From: a virus
IMG/VR virus record: IMGVR_UViG_3300032213_001070
Coordinates: 20,215 to 84,214 of that record
Strand: one strand, 5' to 3'
Length of the DNA stretch: 64,000 nucleotides
Position numbers and translations under genes: made by a program. A model generated the notes under the pieces. The model had not been told where the DNA came from. It saw nothing but the letters and a program-made list of their open reading frames with translations, and ran no database searches. Positions 8,993 through 58,548 of this stretch are shown piece after piece; position 1 is the first letter of the stretch; each line of letters opens with the position of its first letter.

Positions 8993-11900
8993 ATGGCGAC
9001 CTATTTAAGTGGCGTTACTGATTATATTCCGGACTACCAGCCATTTCAGCCAGACCTGAACTTTTATGCTAATGTGTTACAAACAAAGCAAAGTCAGTAT
9101 GATACAAACTGGAAGCAGGTAAATAATCTATATGCTGAATTACACAATTCTGATCTTACACATGACTTAAATGTTAAGAAAAAAGATGAGCTATTAAAAC
9201 AAATAGACTTCAACTTAAAAAGAGTTAGTGGACTTGATTTATCATTAGAACAAAATGTAAACCAAGCTACCCAAGTATTTAGACCATTCTATGAGGATAA
9301 GTACTTGATGAAAGATATGGCTTGGACAAAAAACTATAATTCAACATTAAGTAGAGCATTGAATCTTAATAACTCTCAGGATGAAAAGATGAGATCTCAA
9401 TACTGGGATGAAGGTGTTAAAGAAATGCAATACCGCAAACAAGAGTTTAAAGACTCTACACTAGATGAAACACTAAACTTTGGTAATGTTAAATATACTC
9501 CAAAGGTTGATGTTTTATCTAAGTATCAAGAAATATTTAAAAAGTCAGGCTTATCAGTTGATATTAAAGATGTAGATGCTTCAGGAATGTATTTTGTAAG
9601 AGAGAAGAATGGAAAAGTATTACTTGCTCCTTTACAAAAGTTGTTTATGACATCATATATAAATGATCCGGCAACACAAGCTTTCTATGCAACTCAAGCA
9701 TATGTAAAAAGAAAAGACTATGCAGAACAAAATGCATCTAAATTTAATGGTAACAAAGCTGAAGCTGAAAAAGAATACTTAAGAGATCAGTATAAGTGGT
9801 TACAGAACAAAGCTAAAGAAGAAAATGTAGATGCTAAAGATGCTGTATCTGTAAATAAAAACAAAACAGCAACTGTTGAAAAACAAATTCTTGATAAAGA
9901 TGCAAATCCTTATAGTGAGTCTTATTTAGATACTTTAAATAAAGCAATGGCTATTGATGAAACAGTAGCTAATCATGCTGATAAAATAAATAAAGAAGTA
10001 AATGGAGATGGTACATCTTCAGTAACAATGTCTAGACCACAAGGAGATCCTTCTCAGTTAGACTTTTCTAATATGACGTTAGCTAGGCTTAAAGTTGATT
10101 CAGCTTTTGCATCTTCATTAGCTGAGAGAGACATTAATGCAGCTGCTGATATTTATTCATATACAAATTATGTTTATGAAAAATCAGTTAATCCGGTAGG
10201 ACTAGAAGGATTAAGACATAGAAACTCTATTGCAAGACTTGACTATGCTAGTCAACTTAAAATGCGTGAAATTGATTATAAGTCACAAAAAGATATAGAA
10301 AAAGCTAGGGTAGAGCAAGGCCTTGCAGATGGTACCATCTGGTATGATAAAGATAATAAGATGCATATAGATTACGGTGATGCTTACAAAGCTAACTGGG
10401 GATCTACATCAGGACAAGTAGGCAGTGAATATAATGTCATGGCTAAAAATGTTAAAGATAGAGATGAGGTAGTATCAAGTTTAACAGGAGACTATATTGG
10501 CCGAACACTTACACATCTTAATAATCTTGCAGAGGGTGATTCACAAATAACTAGCAAAGAACTTTGGAATGCTGTATCATTCTTAGATCCTAATAGTAAA
10601 GAAGCAAAAGATAGATATAAGACTAGAGATGGTAAACAACTAGTTGCTCAACTTTATAAAAAGTATCAAGAGAACCCAGGCAAGTTTGTATTAGAATTTT
10701 CTAAGACCAATCAAGTTCTTAAACTTAAAAAGTTTATGGACTCATGGTCATCAAGAAATGCAGGGCATCCGATTGCATATGAATATAACTCTGATGCAAG
10801 TAATGTTAAAATTGAAAGGTTTAAAAGATTTAATGAAGCTTCAAAAATAGTAGATCAACATAACTATAACAAGATAAGTAAGAATCTTATTTCAACATTA
10901 GAGTCAAATGAAGACTTTAAGAATCTAAAAGATGAAACAAAACAAAAGATAGTTGATGTATATATTAAAAACCTAAAGACTGGTAAACAACCTGAAAAAG
11001 GTAAACAAACCTGGTCTGGTAAAACAAGAGATGAAAGTGAGCAAGAGGTTTTTGAAAAGTTTTTAGATCAGCAATTAGGGTATAATAAGTTTGCAACTAA
11101 AAGACACATTGCTACAAGAGGTGAAATTGAAGCAGGTATAGAAAGTGGTGACAGACCGTACCGTAGTGGATTCAGAAATAAAACAGGAATAAATATTGGT
11201 AACCTCTTTGATGTTATGACTAATGCTTATAATAAAACTATAAACCAAACAGGTGATGATGGTTTAATGAGTTATGCAGGTGTTGTAAGAAAACAAGGTG
11301 GTAGATATGCATTAGCCACAAATGATCTTGTAGCTAAAGATGTTATTCTTTCTAAACCAGGTTACGGAGGTTTCCGTGATTTTCAGCAAGCTATGCAAGA
11401 TATAAGCAGAATCCGATTTAGCCAGGATCCTAGTAAGTATGCAGTTACTTATGGTGGCACAACTATATCAGCTGCTGAAAAGAATAGATTAGATCCGGGT
11501 AAAGTAAAAGCAATGCTAAAAGAATTGCAGTTATCAGCCGGCAAAAAGAGTACAACTAAGTTTACAATTGCTAGAGATGGTATGGCTTTAGAAAATCTAG
11601 ACTTAAGAGCATTTAGAATTAAACCTTCTAAGGAAATATTAGATAAGTATTTTAAAACAGCTGATGGTAAAGTAAACACATCTGTAGTAAATGATATACT
11701 TAAAAATGGTATAAGCTTTATTGCACCTAAAAGTGAGTGGACAAATGATTTTATACTTGAGAATGAACTGACTCCAACTGAAATGATACTTAATGCCAAA
11801 AAGAAAATTGAGTATGTTCAAGGTAATGGAGCTGGTAAGTATATAATAGAAAAAGTTAATAATGTACCTGGAGTAGATTATAGAGTTAATTATACAGGCT

Positions 11901-41240: not shown

Positions 41241-42410
41241 TTACTTGACAGCCATCTTCACCACGTCCTTATTCATCATAAGTTGTGCAAACTTAACCTT
41301 GTTTCCATTGACAATCTCCTTGATGATATAGTATCTAAGGTCATCAGTAAATGCATCACAGTCTGTAGTAAGCTTGATTAGTCTTTGAGTCATTCCGCTC
41401 GGAACAGGCTTAGTATCTGCAAACACCAATGAATAATTTATTAATCTGGTTGCAATCACACTAGATATGTCTGCTCTAAAGTCATCATCTTTACCTACAG
41501 CATTTGTTAATGCATTCATTACATATTGCTCATCTTTAGTAAGTGTATCTTCAGGTGAGATAATCTTATCCAACTTGTTGTTAATGAACATAGTAAACAT
41601 AGAACTAAAGTCTACACCAACAGAACCCTCACCAATCATTTGAATTAGAGGCAGGTCTGCTTCAAACTTAGGAATAGAGCTAATAGCATTAAAGAAAGTA
41701 GTAATAGATCTTGGATTAACTCTTTGAGTTACCAATTCTGGGTGCATCAACATAAAGTTAATACATCTACCATCTATTCCTGCAGTCTCAGCCCACTTAG
41801 CCCATACGTTTACATCATACTTCAACTCCACAGATACAAATCTTGTCTTCTGAGCTACATCCAAGCTAGTTACATTATAGTCACCATTGTCCGGATTAGT
41901 AGTCAAGATCACATGCCAGTTCTTAGGAAGCTTCCATGATACATATTCCTGTCTATCTAAGATCTCCATAGTAGCTTGCATAAATCTATGGTCAGCCCGG
42001 GTATAGTCATCAAGAATCAAGAAACCACCTTCTCCTTTACCTTGAATCCATTCAGGAGCAGCATGTGACATACGCTTACCAATAACTTTGTAACCTTTCT
42101 TAATGGCTGCATCTATCTGAGCTTCATTAATCCAAGTAGTTTTACCTTCTGCATTCTGTATTTCAAATTCTTTTACAGGAAAACCAACTAAGTCACCTAA
42201 TTCTTCCAACTGAGATAAATTCAGCTTTACTACTTGCATGTCCATTTCTTTACCCAACTGCATGATAGCAGAAGTCTTACCCAGACCAGCATCACCCTCA
42301 ATATTAATAGCTACGGGAACCTTACCCTCTGCTTGAATATACTGATTGTTGTTAACCATGTGCTTAATAAAGCTCTTTAACTCTTCTACATTCAATTGTA
42401 CTTGACTCAT
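41241..42410 (-). CDS. AAA+ ATPase, MoxR-like
   Basis: A 389-aa AAA+ protein. Walker A is GDAGLGKT (39-46), Walker B is GGFLILDDYTRAD (about 127-139), and sensor 1 is in VILTTNPDNGDYN. The segment LDVAQKTRFVSVELKYD fits the MoxR/CoxD-type group that works with VWA-domain proteins, and the adjacent upstream gene indeed encodes a VWA protein (10 bp gap). Such pairs act as metal-insertion or complex-remodelling chaperones in bacteria. In this phage the substrate is unknown. The unit ends at the hairpin at 41164-41181. Confidence 0.85.
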   Translation of the reverse strand: MSQVQLNVEELKSFIKHMVNNNQYIQAEGKVPVAINIEGDAGLGKTSAIMQLGKEMDMQVVKLNLSQLEELGDLVGFPVKEFEIQNAEGKTTWINEAQIDAAIKKGYKVIGKRMSHAAPEWIQGKGEGGFLILDDYTRADHRFMQATMEILDRQEYVSWKLPKNWHVILTTNPDNGDYNVTSLDVAQKTRFVSVELKYDVNVWAKWAETAGIDGRCINFMLMHPELVTQRVNPRSITTFFNAISSIPKFEADLPLIQMIGEGSVGVDFSSMFTMFINNKLDKIISPEDTLTKDEQYVMNALTNAVGKDDDFRADISSVIATRLINYSLVFADTKPVPSGMTQRLIKLTTDCDAFTDDLRYYIIKEIVNGNKVKFAQLMMNKDVVKMAVK

Positions 42411-42420
42411 AATCTTTAAT

Positions 42421-43428
42421 TTATAATTCTAATTTAATTACTTTACCTGGTAAATCATTATTCATATAGGACTGCTCTGATAAAACCCATAGGATGTTCC
42501 CTTTTGGTTTTACAGAATAACCACATTCACCATCAGTAAAATACACCAGGCTAGTATATTTCTTTAGGTTTTCATTATAATATTCCAGGACGGGATCAAA
42601 CTCAGTCCCACCTCTTCCGTGTATATTCATTTCATGCTTTCCTGTATAAGGTTTGATAGAATGTATTTTAGTATCACATTGTACTATAGTAATATCAACA
42701 CCTGCCTTATAGATATGATGAATCTCATTCATAAACTCTTTGAGCTCATCATCACTTACAGAACCTGAAGTATCTATAGCTAAAAGCATATGTTGTTTCA
42801 TCTTAATCTTGAGACCCGGATTGTCACTAAATCTTCTATTCTCTTTCCGCCTGATTTTCTTGGTAAATACTTTTGTACTGATTCCAGTAAACCTACGGAT
42901 ATACCCTCTCCAGTCAAACTTAGGTGGTACAATCTCCTCAACTACAATAACTCCTTCTATCTCACCAGGAACAGTACCACGTTTCTTAACAGTTTGCTCC
43001 TTAGCATCACTAAGCACTTTCTGCAATTGCTTTTCAATTAACTTTTGCTCAGCTTCAGTAAGATTATCAAACTCTTCCCAGGTACCATGATCAGGAACAT
43101 TACCCATATCAATATTGTCAAGAAGATTGTCCATTGCTTGATTACCGCAAGTACCATTCTTCTCTTTCTCATCTTTAAACTCTTTAAGCTTGTCATAGTA
43201 ATATCTACAACCTGCTCTAAGTTCAAGATTCATATCAGCATAGTCTTCTATAAAAATACCTCTACCAGGAGCATTCTTAAGTATCTCAGCTATTTCTTCA
43301 GGACTAGCTCCTGTTTCTATAGCTGCAGACATTTCAAGTTTTAGTTTTTCATTCAATGCTTCATATTCTTCTTTAGAATATTCTCCGCCCGGCAACCAAG
43401 ACTTTTCAATGTACTGATTGATTTCCAT
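42421..43428 (-). CDS. Metallopeptidase/VWA protein (DUF2201-like), exon 2: VWA domain
   Basis: Exon 2 of an intron-split gene (335 codons plus stop); the spliced protein would be 434 aa. It carries the VWA domain with the MIDAS motif LAIDTSGSVS (Asp at about residue 318 of the spliced protein) and ends in GRGGTEFDP and VYFTDGECG. Upstream are a linker with EEFDNLTEAEQKLIEKQLQ and a basic ERF-type region FDWRGYIRRFTG typical of DUF2201-like proteins. An ATG at 43446 gives an apparent separate ORF, but its first six codons lie in the intron. The true exon begins MEINQYIEKSWLPGG, the usual continuation of the metallopeptidase domain. Partner of the AAA+ protein downstream. Confidence 0.85.
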   Translation of the reverse strand: MEINQYIEKSWLPGGEYSKEEYEALNEKLKLEMSAAIETGASPEEIAEILKNAPGRGIFIEDYADMNLELRAGCRYYYDKLKEFKDEKEKNGTCGNQAMDNLLDNIDMGNVPDHGTWEEFDNLTEAEQKLIEKQLQKVLSDAKEQTVKKRGTVPGEIEGVIVVEEIVPPKFDWRGYIRRFTGISTKVFTKKIRRKENRRFSDNPGLKIKMKQHMLLAIDTSGSVSDDELKEFMNEIHHIYKAGVDITIVQCDTKIHSIKPYTGKHEMNIHGRGGTEFDPVLEYYNENLKKYTSLVYFTDGECGYSVKPKGNILWVLSEQSYMNNDLPGKVIKLEL

Positions 43429-43737
43429 CATTTGTGTTAGCTGCATGTTTCCCTGCAGATCGGACTATACCTTCACCCCAGTAGGGTGGCTTATTGTAGT
43501 CTCTGAACCTCTTTCTTTAAAATAGTTTTCAAATTTATTCTTCTTTCTGTCTAACTTTTTAAAGAAATTTGGCTGCGGATCACCCATTTGGACATCTCTA
43601 TCTTTTTTACTATACCTGAATAATTAGTTCAGCCACATACTACCTCACGGTGCATGCTTAGTAGATAGAGCTTTAGGATTTTCCCGTCAATTTAAAGCTT
43701 TCTCTTACACATTACTGTGCAACGGGACTAGGAATTA
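43429..43737 (-). ncRNA. Group I intron (309 nt, no ORF)
   Basis: On the - strand all four group I core elements are readable in order: P TTGACGGGAA (43681-43690), Q GATCCGCAGCC (43571-43581), R GTTCAGAGACTACAA (43494-43508), S AAGGTATAGTCCG (43461-43473). P7 pairs GACTA with TAGTC; P8 is CACCC/GGGTG; P9 is CTGCA/TGCAG; P4 can pair CGGG with TCCG; an extended P6 pairs TTTCTTTAAAA with TTTTAAAGAAA. The 5' exon ends GGAT and pairs with GTCC at the internal guide, giving the required U.G pair, while TTCC beside it can pair with GGAA in exon 2 (P10). The intron ends in G. It starts with TAA, stopping translation of unspliced RNA, as in T4 introns. Confidence 0.92.
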
Positions 43738-44034
43738 ATCCATTGCAACATTTGCAAGTCTCTTATCACTAAACTTAAAGTAAGTAGTAAGGTGACCAAA
43801 TGCAATATGAAGCAATTCATGTTTTAATATACCAAGCCTCTGTTCTTCATTAAGACCTTCCCAAAAATCAGGATTAATAGCAAGCTGATAATTAATACCA
43901 TTCTTACTAACTCCGGCAGTAGGAACTCTCTTAGCATCCCATAGCTTATTCAACATGATGAGAAAGAACCCATAATAAGGTTCCTTCAACATTAGGTCTT
44001 TACTAGCTTTACTTAAACTCTGAACTTTGTCCAT
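43738..44034 (-). CDS. Metallopeptidase/VWA protein (DUF2201-like), exon 1: zincin-like domain
   Basis: Exon 1 (99 codons) holds the putative metallopeptidase domain of a DUF2201-type protein: KHELLHIAFGH places the HExxH zinc site at His72, Glu73, His76, with His81 as a further ligand candidate. The reading frame ends ...LANVAMD, after which TAA is the first intron codon. Joined to exon 2 it continues MEINQYI, the pattern expected for the family. The start shares a base with the stop of the 133-aa gene upstream (TAATG). In bacteria, fusions of this peptidase-like domain with VWA sit beside MoxR-type ATPases, as here. Confidence 0.85.
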
Positions 44035-46042: not shown

Positions 46043-46468
46043 TTATTTTATTTTAAAGAAACGGCCAAGTATATTTCCATTTAAGAATTCTTCTTTCTCA
46101 AGAACTTCCCTAACAAACTGATACTTAGTCTCATAATATGTAAGTTCCATTTTGGAAAAACATATCTTAACCATAAACCTTTTAATCTTTACACCAGCTT
46201 TGTGAGCTTCTTTAAGAACTGCATTACTACTATAATAGTTTTGATAACTGGGTTTAGTAACAGTCTCATACTTTTTAGTCCTTTTATCTGTTACTTGAGC
46301 CATAGCTCTTTTACCAAACTTCTTTTTTGTAACAGAGTAAAAGTTCTTTTTACCTACATATCTTACAGACTTTCCATTGATAACAGCTTCCATCTCATAC
46401 ACAAAACCTACGGCTCCATCTGGAATCATGCTATCATTAAAAGGTCTTCCTTCATATAACCAACTCAT
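46043..46468 (-). CDS. SegE-like GIY-YIG endonuclease
   Basis: 141 aa from the ATG at 46468, which overlaps the previous stop as ATGA; an in-frame TTG at 46495 is less likely. It fits the SegE-type GIY-YIG family: GFVYEMEAVINGKSVRYVGKKNF (GIY-YIG-like strand pair), YQNYYSSNAVLKEAHKAGVK, then MELTYYETKYQFVREVLEKE with the catalytic-helix Glu region, and NGNILGRFFKIK. Free-standing members of this family cut DNA and promote their own spread in T4. It sits just downstream of the primase with no sign of an intron. Confidence 0.8.
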   Translation of the reverse strand: MSWLYEGRPFNDSMIPDGAVGFVYEMEAVINGKSVRYVGKKNFYSVTKKKFGKRAMAQVTDKRTKKYETVTKPSYQNYYSSNAVLKEAHKAGVKIKRFMVKICFSKMELTYYETKYQFVREVLEKEEFLNGNILGRFFKIK

Positions 46469-46620
46469 TTGTGCTTGTATCTTTTCATGTGCCAATCCGC
46501 TACAGTATTAACCATAGTAGCTAATATACTTATTGCTTCTTCTATTGATCTTGCTTCAAAACTTAATCTTGCTTTTGTTATATTATGTTTAAAAACATAA
46601 TCATACATAGGATTTTTCAT
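46465..46620 (-). CDS. Small helical protein, 51 aa
   Basis: A short ORF coupled on both sides by ATGA overlaps (with the primase stop and with the SegE-like start). The sequence begins MKNPMYDYVFKHNITKARLS, continues FEARSIEEAISILATMVNTV and ends with a basic tail (HMKRYKHK). The tight coupling makes it a real gene; function unknown. Confidence 0.65.
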   Translation of the reverse strand: MKNPMYDYVFKHNITKARLSFEARSIEEAISILATMVNTVADWHMKRYKHK

Positions 46621-48521: not shown

Positions 48522-49337
48522 CATTATCTTCAAATTAATTTGCAAAATTAACCCCGTTTATTAAACTGCTTAACATTTCTGCTAAGATGAGACTATATCT
48601 TCTTCCTTGTTAGGAAGGCTTCCTTTTCCACTACCATTAGCTTGTAGTGTACTCCCCTTTGGGATAGTCGTTGAACCTTTTATAAATAAGTTTTCATATA
48701 CTTGCTTTATCCAAAGTACCCATTCATCATATGAATAGTTCTTTTTAGCAAAATTACATTTTTGACAGCAAGGAACACAATTATTTAGCGTATAACCAAT
48801 GCTATTGTCCTTTCTATCTATACCATTATATACAAACTCAGATGTATCTTTAAATTTTCTTTTATGTCCTTTAAATGTATTTGCTGGAACAGCATTACAA
48901 TAATGACAGTTTTGAACTACAAGTTCCTTAAATTCATCTAAATTAATATCAAAAGTATAATTTCTAAGTAAAGCTTGCTTTTGGTAATTCATGTAAACTT
49001 GATAAAACATTGCTGTAAAAAGAGGTTTAGAACTTCTTTCAACTATTTGTTCAATATTATAACAACCACAAGATTTACTTGCCCCAGATTTAACTGAATA
49101 ACCAGTAACTTTTTTAATGCTTCCACAATCACATTGGCAAATATATCTTTTTGTAGATTTTTCCCAATGAAGCACTGCCCATCTATTAATTTTTGTCCCG
49201 GGTTCTAAACTTAATTTACTCATATTTACTTATTTATAACTTGGCTGCTGATTGTCTTCACCTTTCAGTGGTCAGAGTTCCCAGCAATTAAAAAGCTTTT
49301 TCAATCTATATTACTATAGAAAGTGGCTACTAATTTA
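48522..49337 (-). ncRNA. Group I intron (816 nt) with HNH endonuclease ORF
   Basis: The core elements on the - strand: P TTGCTGGGAACTC (about 49274-49287), Q AATCAGCAGCC (about 49243-49253), R GGTTCAACGACTATCCC (48661-48677), S GAAGATATAGTCTCA (48588-48602). P7 pairs GACTAT with ATAGTC. The 5' exon ends TGGT and pairs with GCCA in the internal guide, giving the U.G splice-site pair; a 3-bp P10 with exon 2 is possible. The intron starts TAA (in-frame stop, as in the T4 td intron) and ends ...GATAATG before exon 2. The endonuclease ORF begins just after Q, in the P6 loop, and runs through R and S, so its last codons are also ribozyme core. Confidence 0.92.
48582..49223 (-). CDS. Intron-encoded HNH homing endonuclease
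   Basis: A 213-aa protein. The N-terminus (PGTKINRWAVLHWEKSTKRY, CQCDCGSIKKVT, ASKSCGC) is the Cys-based DNA-binding module common in HNH homing enzymes. The HNH nuclease core is CHYCNAVP, then YNGIDRKDNSIGYTLNNCVP and CCQKCNFAKK, followed by YSYDEWVLWIKQVYENL. It is encoded inside the intron of the Sak4-like gene and presumably cuts the intronless allele. The last 30 or so residues (TTIPKGSTLQANGSGKGS onward) are unlike the family and overlap ribozyme core sequence, so they are probably a read-through tail. Confidence 0.9.
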   Translation of the reverse strand: MSKLSLEPGTKINRWAVLHWEKSTKRYICQCDCGSIKKVTGYSVKSGASKSCGCYNIEQIVERSSKPLFTAMFYQVYMNYQKQALLRNYTFDINLDEFKELVVQNCHYCNAVPANTFKGHKRKFKDTSEFVYNGIDRKDNSIGYTLNNCVPCCQKCNFAKKNYSYDEWVLWIKQVYENLFIKGSTTIPKGSTLQANGSGKGSLPNKEEDIVSS

Positions 49338-49898
49338 ACCAATTGCATCAGCATTTGCACAGATTAAAGATTTAATTTTACCTGTCAAATCAATGTTTGC
49401 AGACATAACCATATCCCCTTTATCATCAACTACCTTGTCTTTAATGTGACCAGATAAAATAATGTGGGGTGCTAAGGTATCAATAAAATCTAAAACCTGG
49501 AAAAATGCTTCACGGATATATAAATATCCAGCACCATTTGGCAATGTAGAAACAGTATCACCACTAAAACTTTTACCCATTGGAGTATTCTTATACAGCT
49601 TAATTGCAAGCGGCATAATCATAGTCTCTAATGCAGTCACAGTATCTATAGTAACATACTTATAGGGTTTACCTGCTTCTTTGATTGCTTTACCGGCATC
49701 TAATAGCTCTTGAAGATTACTAACTTTAATCTTAAGAGCATCTACATAATCAGAACCATTTTCTAAATCTATAATCAGATTGTTGTCTAATCCTGCAAAT
49801 GCAGTTGTTTTACCTGTCTTTGGCTTTGAATAAATCAGTAATCTCTTTGGATTAACCTGACTTGCCTTTACTTTACTTGTTGGAAGTACTATACTCAT
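49338..49898 (-). CDS. Sak4-like RecA-type ATPase, exon 1
   Basis: Exon 1 (187 codons) holds the ATPase core of a Sak4-type single-strand annealing/recombination protein. Walker A is YSKPKTGKTTAF (Lys30), followed by NLIIDLENGSDYV and a Walker B-type strand (YKYVTIDTVTALE) and HIILSGHIKDKV. The frame ends ...ANADAIG with TAA as the first intron codon. The start overlaps the upstream gene by 4 bp (ATGA). It probably loads on ssDNA with the adjacent SSB-like protein and uses ends made by the RecB-like nuclease at 38899-39903. Confidence 0.88.
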
Positions 49899-57533: not shown

Positions 57534-57803
57534 TTAAATTAATTCTAAATCTGCTTCTTGAAAATGTTCTGCTTCTATTGCTTCTAAAGTAACATAAGGT
57601 GCAAATCTATCCGCACTGTAATACTCATAAGGAAATGATTGTTCTGATAGTTGTACTTCTTTTAATCTATAACCATATCTATTTTGTTGTAGACTCATTC
57701 TGGCTACTTCAACTACAGTATATACCTTACCTTCTTCTAACCATTCATATGGTGATATTCTTTTAGGCTTGTTACTGGCATTAATACATATTACTTTTAA
57801 CAT
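57534..57803 (-). CDS. Conserved small phage protein, 89 aa
   Basis: An 89-aa, probably beta-barrel-like protein: MLKVICINASNKPKRISPYE, WLEEGKVYTVVEVARMSLQQ, then GYRLKEVQLSE and YYSADRFAPY. I recall this plan (CIN, K.P.EIP, EGKxYTV, GYxLxExxL, RF) in Bacteroidota phages as an SH3-like small protein of unknown role. Its start overlaps the end of the GIY-YIG endonuclease gene by 7 bp. Confidence 0.6.
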   Translation of the reverse strand: MLKVICINASNKPKRISPYEWLEEGKVYTVVEVARMSLQQNRYGYRLKEVQLSEQSFPYEYYSADRFAPYVTLEAIEAEHFQEADLELI

Positions 57804-58516
57804 GACATAAATTTATATCTTTTTTTAAAATACTTATTTGTATCTATATACTTTTTATAATTTGTTGGTCTTCCTGTAACTTTAAAAGCTGAATCAGTTG
57901 ATAAATATGTTGTTACAGTATCTAAAAGTATATCATGTACTTTTAACATGATTTTGTTTCCTGCAAGCAAATTAACATTTATTTTTAAAGGATAATTTTT
58001 TTCATTGTATCTCCAAAAATAATTATTACTTGTTCTTGATAAATCTACTAAAGCATGTCTTAGTGTACTTGATCCACAATTAAAATATTTTGCAGCATCA
58101 AGTATAGAATCCCACTTTTTTATAAAATTACCTTCTAAATCATACTGCAATATAGACTTAGATAATTTTTTTGCAAGAATTTTATACTTTTCATGACTGT
58201 GTTTAAAACCTAATGTACCTTCACCACCTAATGTAGCATTAGTTAAATCAAAACCCCATTGTTTAAATTGACCTATCCAATAAATTTCAAGATCACAAGC
58301 TTCTTCTAAAGAATTTGCTCTATCTAATTCTTTAATGATAGGTTTTTGATTTTGCATTTTTAATTTTTTAATCCAGTTAGTTTTATGAGAATTACAATCT
58401 TTTGACTTTGTGCAGTGCCCAGATAATCTTACACTTAATTTTACAGAAGTTAAACCAATGTATCTTATGTCTAAACTTATAGGATCTTGTAATGTATATA
58501 TTATGAATTTTTTCAT
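57797..58516 (-). CDS. GIY-YIG/NUMOD homing endonuclease (free-standing)
   Basis: 239 aa from the ATG at 58516; an in-frame TTG at 58522 is unlikely. The GIY-YIG core is FIIYTLQDPISLDIRYIGLT, with Arg in the usual SVRLSGHC loop, NWIKKLKMQNQKPIIKEL and the catalytic Glu helix DLEIYWIGQFKQWG; LTNATLGGEGTLGFKHS is the typical linker. A NUMOD1-like DNA-binding repeat follows (SILQYDLEGNFIKKWDSILD, AAKYFNCGSSTLRHAL). It lies between the ClpS-like gene and the 89-aa gene without splitting either. A TATATTTG promoter box lies just upstream. Confidence 0.9.
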   Translation of the reverse strand: MKKFIIYTLQDPISLDIRYIGLTSVKLSVRLSGHCTKSKDCNSHKTNWIKKLKMQNQKPIIKELDRANSLEEACDLEIYWIGQFKQWGFDLTNATLGGEGTLGFKHSHEKYKILAKKLSKSILQYDLEGNFIKKWDSILDAAKYFNCGSSTLRHALVDLSRTSNNYFWRYNEKNYPLKINVNLLAGNKIMLKVHDILLDTVTTYLSTDSAFKVTGRPTNYKKYIDTNKYFKKRYKFMSC

Positions 58517-58519
58517 ATT

Positions 58520-58548
58520 CAAATATACAAAAAATTAATCAATGCAAA
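58520..58548 (-). promoter_or_regulatory. Bacteroidota-type promoter for the GIY-YIG endonuclease
   Basis: On the - strand, TTTG, 17 nt, then TATATTTG match the TTTG/TAnnTTTG promoter of Bacteroidota. The -7 box (58520-58527) ends 3 nt before the ATG at 58516, so the transcript would be leaderless or nearly so. The -33 TTTG falls within the last codons of the ClpS-like gene. Confidence 0.5.

Follow-up and report, generated by a model that had tools for sequence, protein, structure and literature searches.

A group I intron in a phage metallopeptidase-VWA gene, probably descended from a LAGLIDADG-bearing mobile intron by deletion of the endonuclease gene

A 309-nt element on the minus strand (43429-43737) of the window, by which we mean the whole 64,000-nt stretch analysed, itself part of a virus contig 84,214 bases long, is best read as a self-splicing group I intron which descends from a mobile form bearing a LAGLIDADG endonuclease gene and from which that gene has been deleted. 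Judged from the sequence, we put the probability of this reading at about 0.93. The interrupted gene appears as two annotated reading frames on the minus strand, a zincin-like ORF (44034-43735) and a VWA ORF (43446-42421). That these are one gene containing a 309-nt group I intron had been proposed in the initial annotation, and the covariance search recommended there agrees: Rfam Intron_gpI (RF00028) matches positions 43747-43441, minus strand, with 83.4 bits (E 1e-19; gathering score 50) and is the sole Rfam family above threshold within the window. The four core motifs described as readable (GACGGGAA, GATCCGCAGCC, TTCAGAGACTACA and GGTATAGTCC) are all found inside the intron. Its origin as the remnant of an endonuclease-bearing intron had been overlooked.

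The borders are fixed by intronless alleles. The joined 434-residue protein used as a query retrieved 80 loci, most of which span residues 1-434, with identities of up to 98%, and the comparison with intronless DUF2201 homologues, also suggested at the outset, shows residues 1-434 coded without a gap. The predicted join VAMD|MEINQYI and the whole protein form a single uninterrupted frame of 1302 nt in phages that are 97-98% identical, and the best intronless matches (L003 and L004-L007) have both flanks in common with the window, at about 97% nucleotide identity near the site. Since the join is free of gaps in these alleles, VAMD|MEINQYI is exact and the intron corresponds to 43737-43429; the junction is unable to slide because exon 1 ends in T, the intron starts with T and ends in G, and exon 2 starts with A. 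Exact in-frame removal of the intron reproduces the intronless homologue. The splice-site features first noted by eye are also borne out. At the 5′ splice site the exon end GGAU (P1 5′ strand, 43738-43741) pairs through a terminal U-G with the guide GUCC (43725-43728), the intron ends in G, and P10 is formed by the guide UUCC (43731-43734) with GGAA of exon 2 (43423-43426). An alternative 5′ splice site, with UGCAAU/GUUGCA as P1, was rejected: no frame would then be compatible with the terminal G, and the guide strand in question is part of the covarying P2. An alternative 3′ end at 43441 would add LTQM, which is absent from the intronless alleles, and would be without P9.0. This comparison supports a group I intron that interrupts a single metallopeptidase-VWA gene, is exactly bounded and can be removed in frame; it would be expected to self-splice in a guanosine-dependent manner.

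Conservation of the fold was assessed in 14 further two-ended copies of the intron together with that of the window, their cores aligned with the ORF removed, which gave 11 distinct rows. The helices were hand-drawn on the window copy, hence the importance of slid-helix controls: compensatory pair types number 13 across the real helices and one across all slid controls. P1, P2, P3, P4, P6, P7, P8, P9 and P9.0 are paired in every distinct copy, and P10, P5a, P5c and P6a in nearly all row-by-pair cells. P1 is paired in 11 of 11 distinct copies (44/44 cells), P9.0, whose 3′ strand (AU) stands with the terminal G at 43429-43431, in 22/22 cells and P10 in 40/41. Compensatory changes occur in P2, P3, P5a, P5c, P6a, P9 and P10. 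The best covarying helix is the P2 hairpin (43705-43722; 66/66 cells, four compensatory types, none in its slid controls), which varies as a unit from UUGCAC/GUGUAA to CUAUAU/AUAUAG. Within the conserved core, P3 (43693-43698 with 43489-43493; 55/55 cells) has one compensatory type, P4 (43683-43689 with 43574-43579; 66/66) and P7 (43497-43501 with 43463-43467; 55/55) are invariant, and the P8 hairpin lies at 43474-43488. The P5 extension (43596-43670) consists of the P5a helix and an internal hairpin, with compensatory changes in both. P6a (43512-43567), an 11-bp helix of UUUCUUUAAAA with UUUUAAAGAAA, is paired in 119/121 cells and is intact despite the deletion described below. The loop of the P9 hairpin (43441-43458) includes the in-frame ATG (43446) of the annotated VWA ORF. 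The plain folding energy of the intron is unremarkable (z −1.9), as expected for a pseudoknotted RNA.

The 5′ exon (43738-44034, minus strand) codes for residues 1-99 of the DUF2201 metallopeptidase-VWA protein, including HELLH at 72-76, and the 3′ exon (42421-43428, minus strand) for residues 100-434, that is, the rest of DUF2201_N and a VWA-like DUF2201 domain. The insertion had been placed directly after the HExxH domain. It actually lies inside a domain, since the match to Pfam DUF2201_N extends from residue 5 to 281 once the exons are joined and the intron falls at residue 99. This span, together with a far better score for the joined protein than for the first exon alone (1e-15 against 5e-8), implies that the 99-residue upstream piece is a domain fragment and not a complete peptidase. 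The splice junction is situated in a run, ANVAMDMEINQYI (which includes ANVAMD|MEINQYI), that hardly varies among 20 homologues and, in a poor AlphaFold model of an intronless protein (mean pLDDT 53.5), in a predicted helix at 91-102. A PDB search revealed no sequence relative of the protein. An ATPase gene (phrog_1297, 41241-42410, minus strand) lies directly downstream, which suggests a MoxR-VWA type pair. In many public phage records (H11, H14, H18 and others) homologues of the metallopeptidase-VWA protein are labelled 'HNH endonuclease', apparently a misannotation that has been propagated.

This intron recurs, at an identical site and with both ends present, in at least 14 further IMG/VR phages (L083, L085-L097). 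These copies share the P1 guide, core and 3′ end with that of the window (core 85-98% identical) and are 1070-1095 nt long, each holding an ORF of 271-279 codons of which the window intron lacks about 770 nt. Three further copies are partial; ORF sequence is visible in L084 and L098, while L100 stops before the ORF. The ORF starts in the P6 region, between the two P6 strands, crosses P6, P7, P3 and P8 into the P7 3′ strand and ends in SHPTGVKV or a near variant. Both of the two ORFs tested score against LAGLIDADG_3, and dN/dS ratios of 0.17-0.36 in seven pairs, from rough Nei-Gojobori counts which leave out the segment overlapping the ribozyme core, indicate purifying selection. The ORF would thus encode a LAGLIDADG-type, and presumably active, endonuclease. 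In the alignment the match between the window and the ORF-bearing copies breaks off after CTTTAAAAAGTT and resumes at GTTAGACAGAAAG; the nucleotides missing relative to L088 fall between two copies of the 3-bp repeat GTT, which marks the junction at 43553-43555 (minus strand) and pins the break to within three bases. As aligned, the window copy is an endonuclease-bearing intron minus about 770 nt, removed by what appears to be a clean and recent deletion. The intron, initially described as ORF-less, is more accurately called endonuclease-deleted: a remnant frame of 40 codons (43465-43587, minus strand) ends in LDRKKNKFENYFKERGSETTISHPTGVKV, the C-terminus of the lost enzyme, and is near-identical to the tail found in the intact relatives. 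Its last ~29 codons are those of the endonuclease ORF and overlap the ribozyme core.

No other deletion form was found in viral_contigs with an exact core pattern at short spacing, and genome_contigs gave zero matches to the core pattern. The core pattern and an exon-anchored pattern retrieve the same 15 loci; short P1-pattern matches in L099 and L101 were discarded as chance. Because the deletion form is represented by one copy in a single metagenomic assembly, an assembly error keeps some small probability, though such an error would by chance have had to spare both the core and P6a. At gathering threshold the ORF-bearing copies went unreported in the Rfam scan, and the metallopeptidase-VWA gene is called as two genes; introns of this type are therefore easily under-counted.

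The relationships among the introns conflict with those of the host gene. Between the window and L083 the intron core is 98.4% identical, against 72% for exon 2 at the nucleotide level and 54% at its third positions; L089 is closer to the window in its exons (75%) and more distant in its intron (87%). The window intron matches those of L088 and L083 at 98% identity and other copies differ by 13-15%, so that constraint on the RNA alone is insufficient to account for the disagreement. On a tree of the exon-2 protein, where the window is placed among intronless rows, the presence of the intron requires seven changes, at least six of them forced by well supported branches. We conclude from this disagreement that the intron family has moved horizontally between phages. 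The flanks in the window show no tract co-converted from a donor with the ORF and so point to no particular route of arrival for this copy.

These data are best explained by the following history. The ancestor would have been a mobile intron with a LAGLIDADG homing endonuclease ORF that spread by homing between related phages. A single deletion in the window phage has since removed the endonuclease gene from its start through most of its length, leaving the tail, which is at the same time ribozyme core. The remaining intron should still splice: in the transcript the 5′ exon would pair with the guide (P1), guanosine would attack after GGAU, and the freed 5′ exon would in turn attack after the terminal G, placed by P9.0 and P10, to yield a joined message for one 434-residue DUF2201-type protein with metallopeptidase-like and VWA domains. 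With the 40-codon remnant in place of the intact endonuclease gene of the relatives, homing by its own means would probably no longer be possible. It could still be mobile if a free-standing endonuclease acted in trans or in collaboration. A SegE-like GIY-YIG gene (46043-46495, minus strand) lies 2.3 kb upstream, and there is precedent for homing in trans by introns without an active endonuclease of their own (PMC3984707, PMC2988022). This gene is, however, conserved in most intron-bearing and intronless relatives alike and hence unlinked to the intron; it was rejected as a specific partner, and we regard mobility in trans as improbable, if the least so of the alternatives.

The initial annotation also held that splicing controls the ratio of two protein forms. 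On that view unspliced RNA would be translated into the peptidase-like part and possibly, starting at the ATG at 43446, into a separate VWA part. The intron does open with an in-frame TAA as its first codon, the in-frame ATG is preceded by AGGGAAAC, and in T4 intron splicing varies with translation and growth state (PMC11878797, PMC3073962). Yet group I introns in general tend to have a stop codon immediately behind the 5′ splice site (PMC3073962), which is read as shielding splicing from ribosomes (PMC3073962, PMC3984707), and the ATG is unconserved, being replaced by TTG at the same place in the intact copies and by TTA in L093. The relatives that are 97-98% identical, and most others, are intronless and make only the fused protein; there is no conserved split form among relatives, and the cut falls inside the peptidase domain and in the nearly invariant run. 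We consider such a switch very unlikely, and equally so a history in which the intron was kept after the deletion as a translation-coupled or growth-dependent gate on the metallopeptidase-VWA gene, the P9 ATG letting the VWA half be made alone. By analogy with T4, some coupling of splicing to translation or growth is conceivable here. The idea that the short form is ancestral and that the relatives acquired the endonuclease gene later is hardly credible: endonucleases are able to invade ORF-less introns (PMC3984707), but the window retains the end of the endonuclease (on its own weaker evidence, because this tail also overlaps the RNA core), the exact-pattern search gave a single short copy as against 14 or more with the ORF, spread over many branches, and the short form is 98% identical to two of these when others are up to 15% different.

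Descent by deletion from an endonuclease-bearing intron has a textbook parallel. In the T4 nrdB intron a large deletion has inactivated I-TevIII, of which RB3 has an active version (PMC2988022, citing Eddy and Gold 1991). Like the window intron, the nrdB intron is of group I, interrupts a protein-coding phage gene and had its endonuclease inactivated by a large deletion, and a relative has the intact form; unlike it, the T4 enzyme is of the HNH type and the host gene encodes ribonucleotide reductase, compared with a LAGLIDADG enzyme and a DUF2201 metallopeptidase-VWA gene here. Endonuclease-deleted forms are predicted by the homing cycle (PMC1654191), and the window intron is a further case of this long-known kind of relic, solid but ordinary. 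Its interest lies in the snapshot it offers of one step of the cycle in uncultured phages, with alleles of one gene that lack the intron, carry it together with the endonuclease, or carry it with the endonuclease deleted. The middle of the intron (~43557-43697) resembles sequences of Pseudoalteromonas phage H101, Enterococcus phage VRE9 and Bacillus phages Moonbeam and Yucatan (71-83% over 90-130 nt), and Rfam reports group I introns in the H101 and Yucatan regions. Where annotated, the context differs from that of the window: the VRE9 intron is next to nrdD, the Yucatan intron lies between DNA polymerase pieces and the H101 region has an HNH ORF. Self-splicing introns of crAss-like phages (PMC7886860) are likewise of group I, some with LAGLIDADG ORFs, and occupy core phage genes; in contrast to the present case they were found mainly through their endonucleases, and other host genes were named. 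Polymerase and structural genes gave no firm taxonomic placement, crAss-like or other, of the window phage.

Other introns and endonuclease genes were observed in the window and its relatives. A second window intron (48522-49337, minus strand, 816 nt) is located in a Sak4-like gene whose 5′ exon starts at 49898. It contains an HNH/endonuclease VII-like ORF (48582-49223), and intronless homologues code for the joined 241-residue protein; its Rfam match is sub-threshold (43.4 bits). A GIY-YIG/NUMOD1 gene lies at 57797-58522 (minus strand). The metallopeptidase-VWA gene itself has two further insertion sites: one in L083 (3280-4383), where 1104 nt with a 277-codon LAGLIDADG-like ORF split the zinc-binding motif (HEL|LH), and one in the VWA part (RGG|TEF) in L097 (3209-4175), where the insertion of 967 nt also carries a LAGLIDADG-like ORF. 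In L093 a group I intron (9060-9295, 87 bits) is found in or near the downstream MoxR-like ATPase gene.
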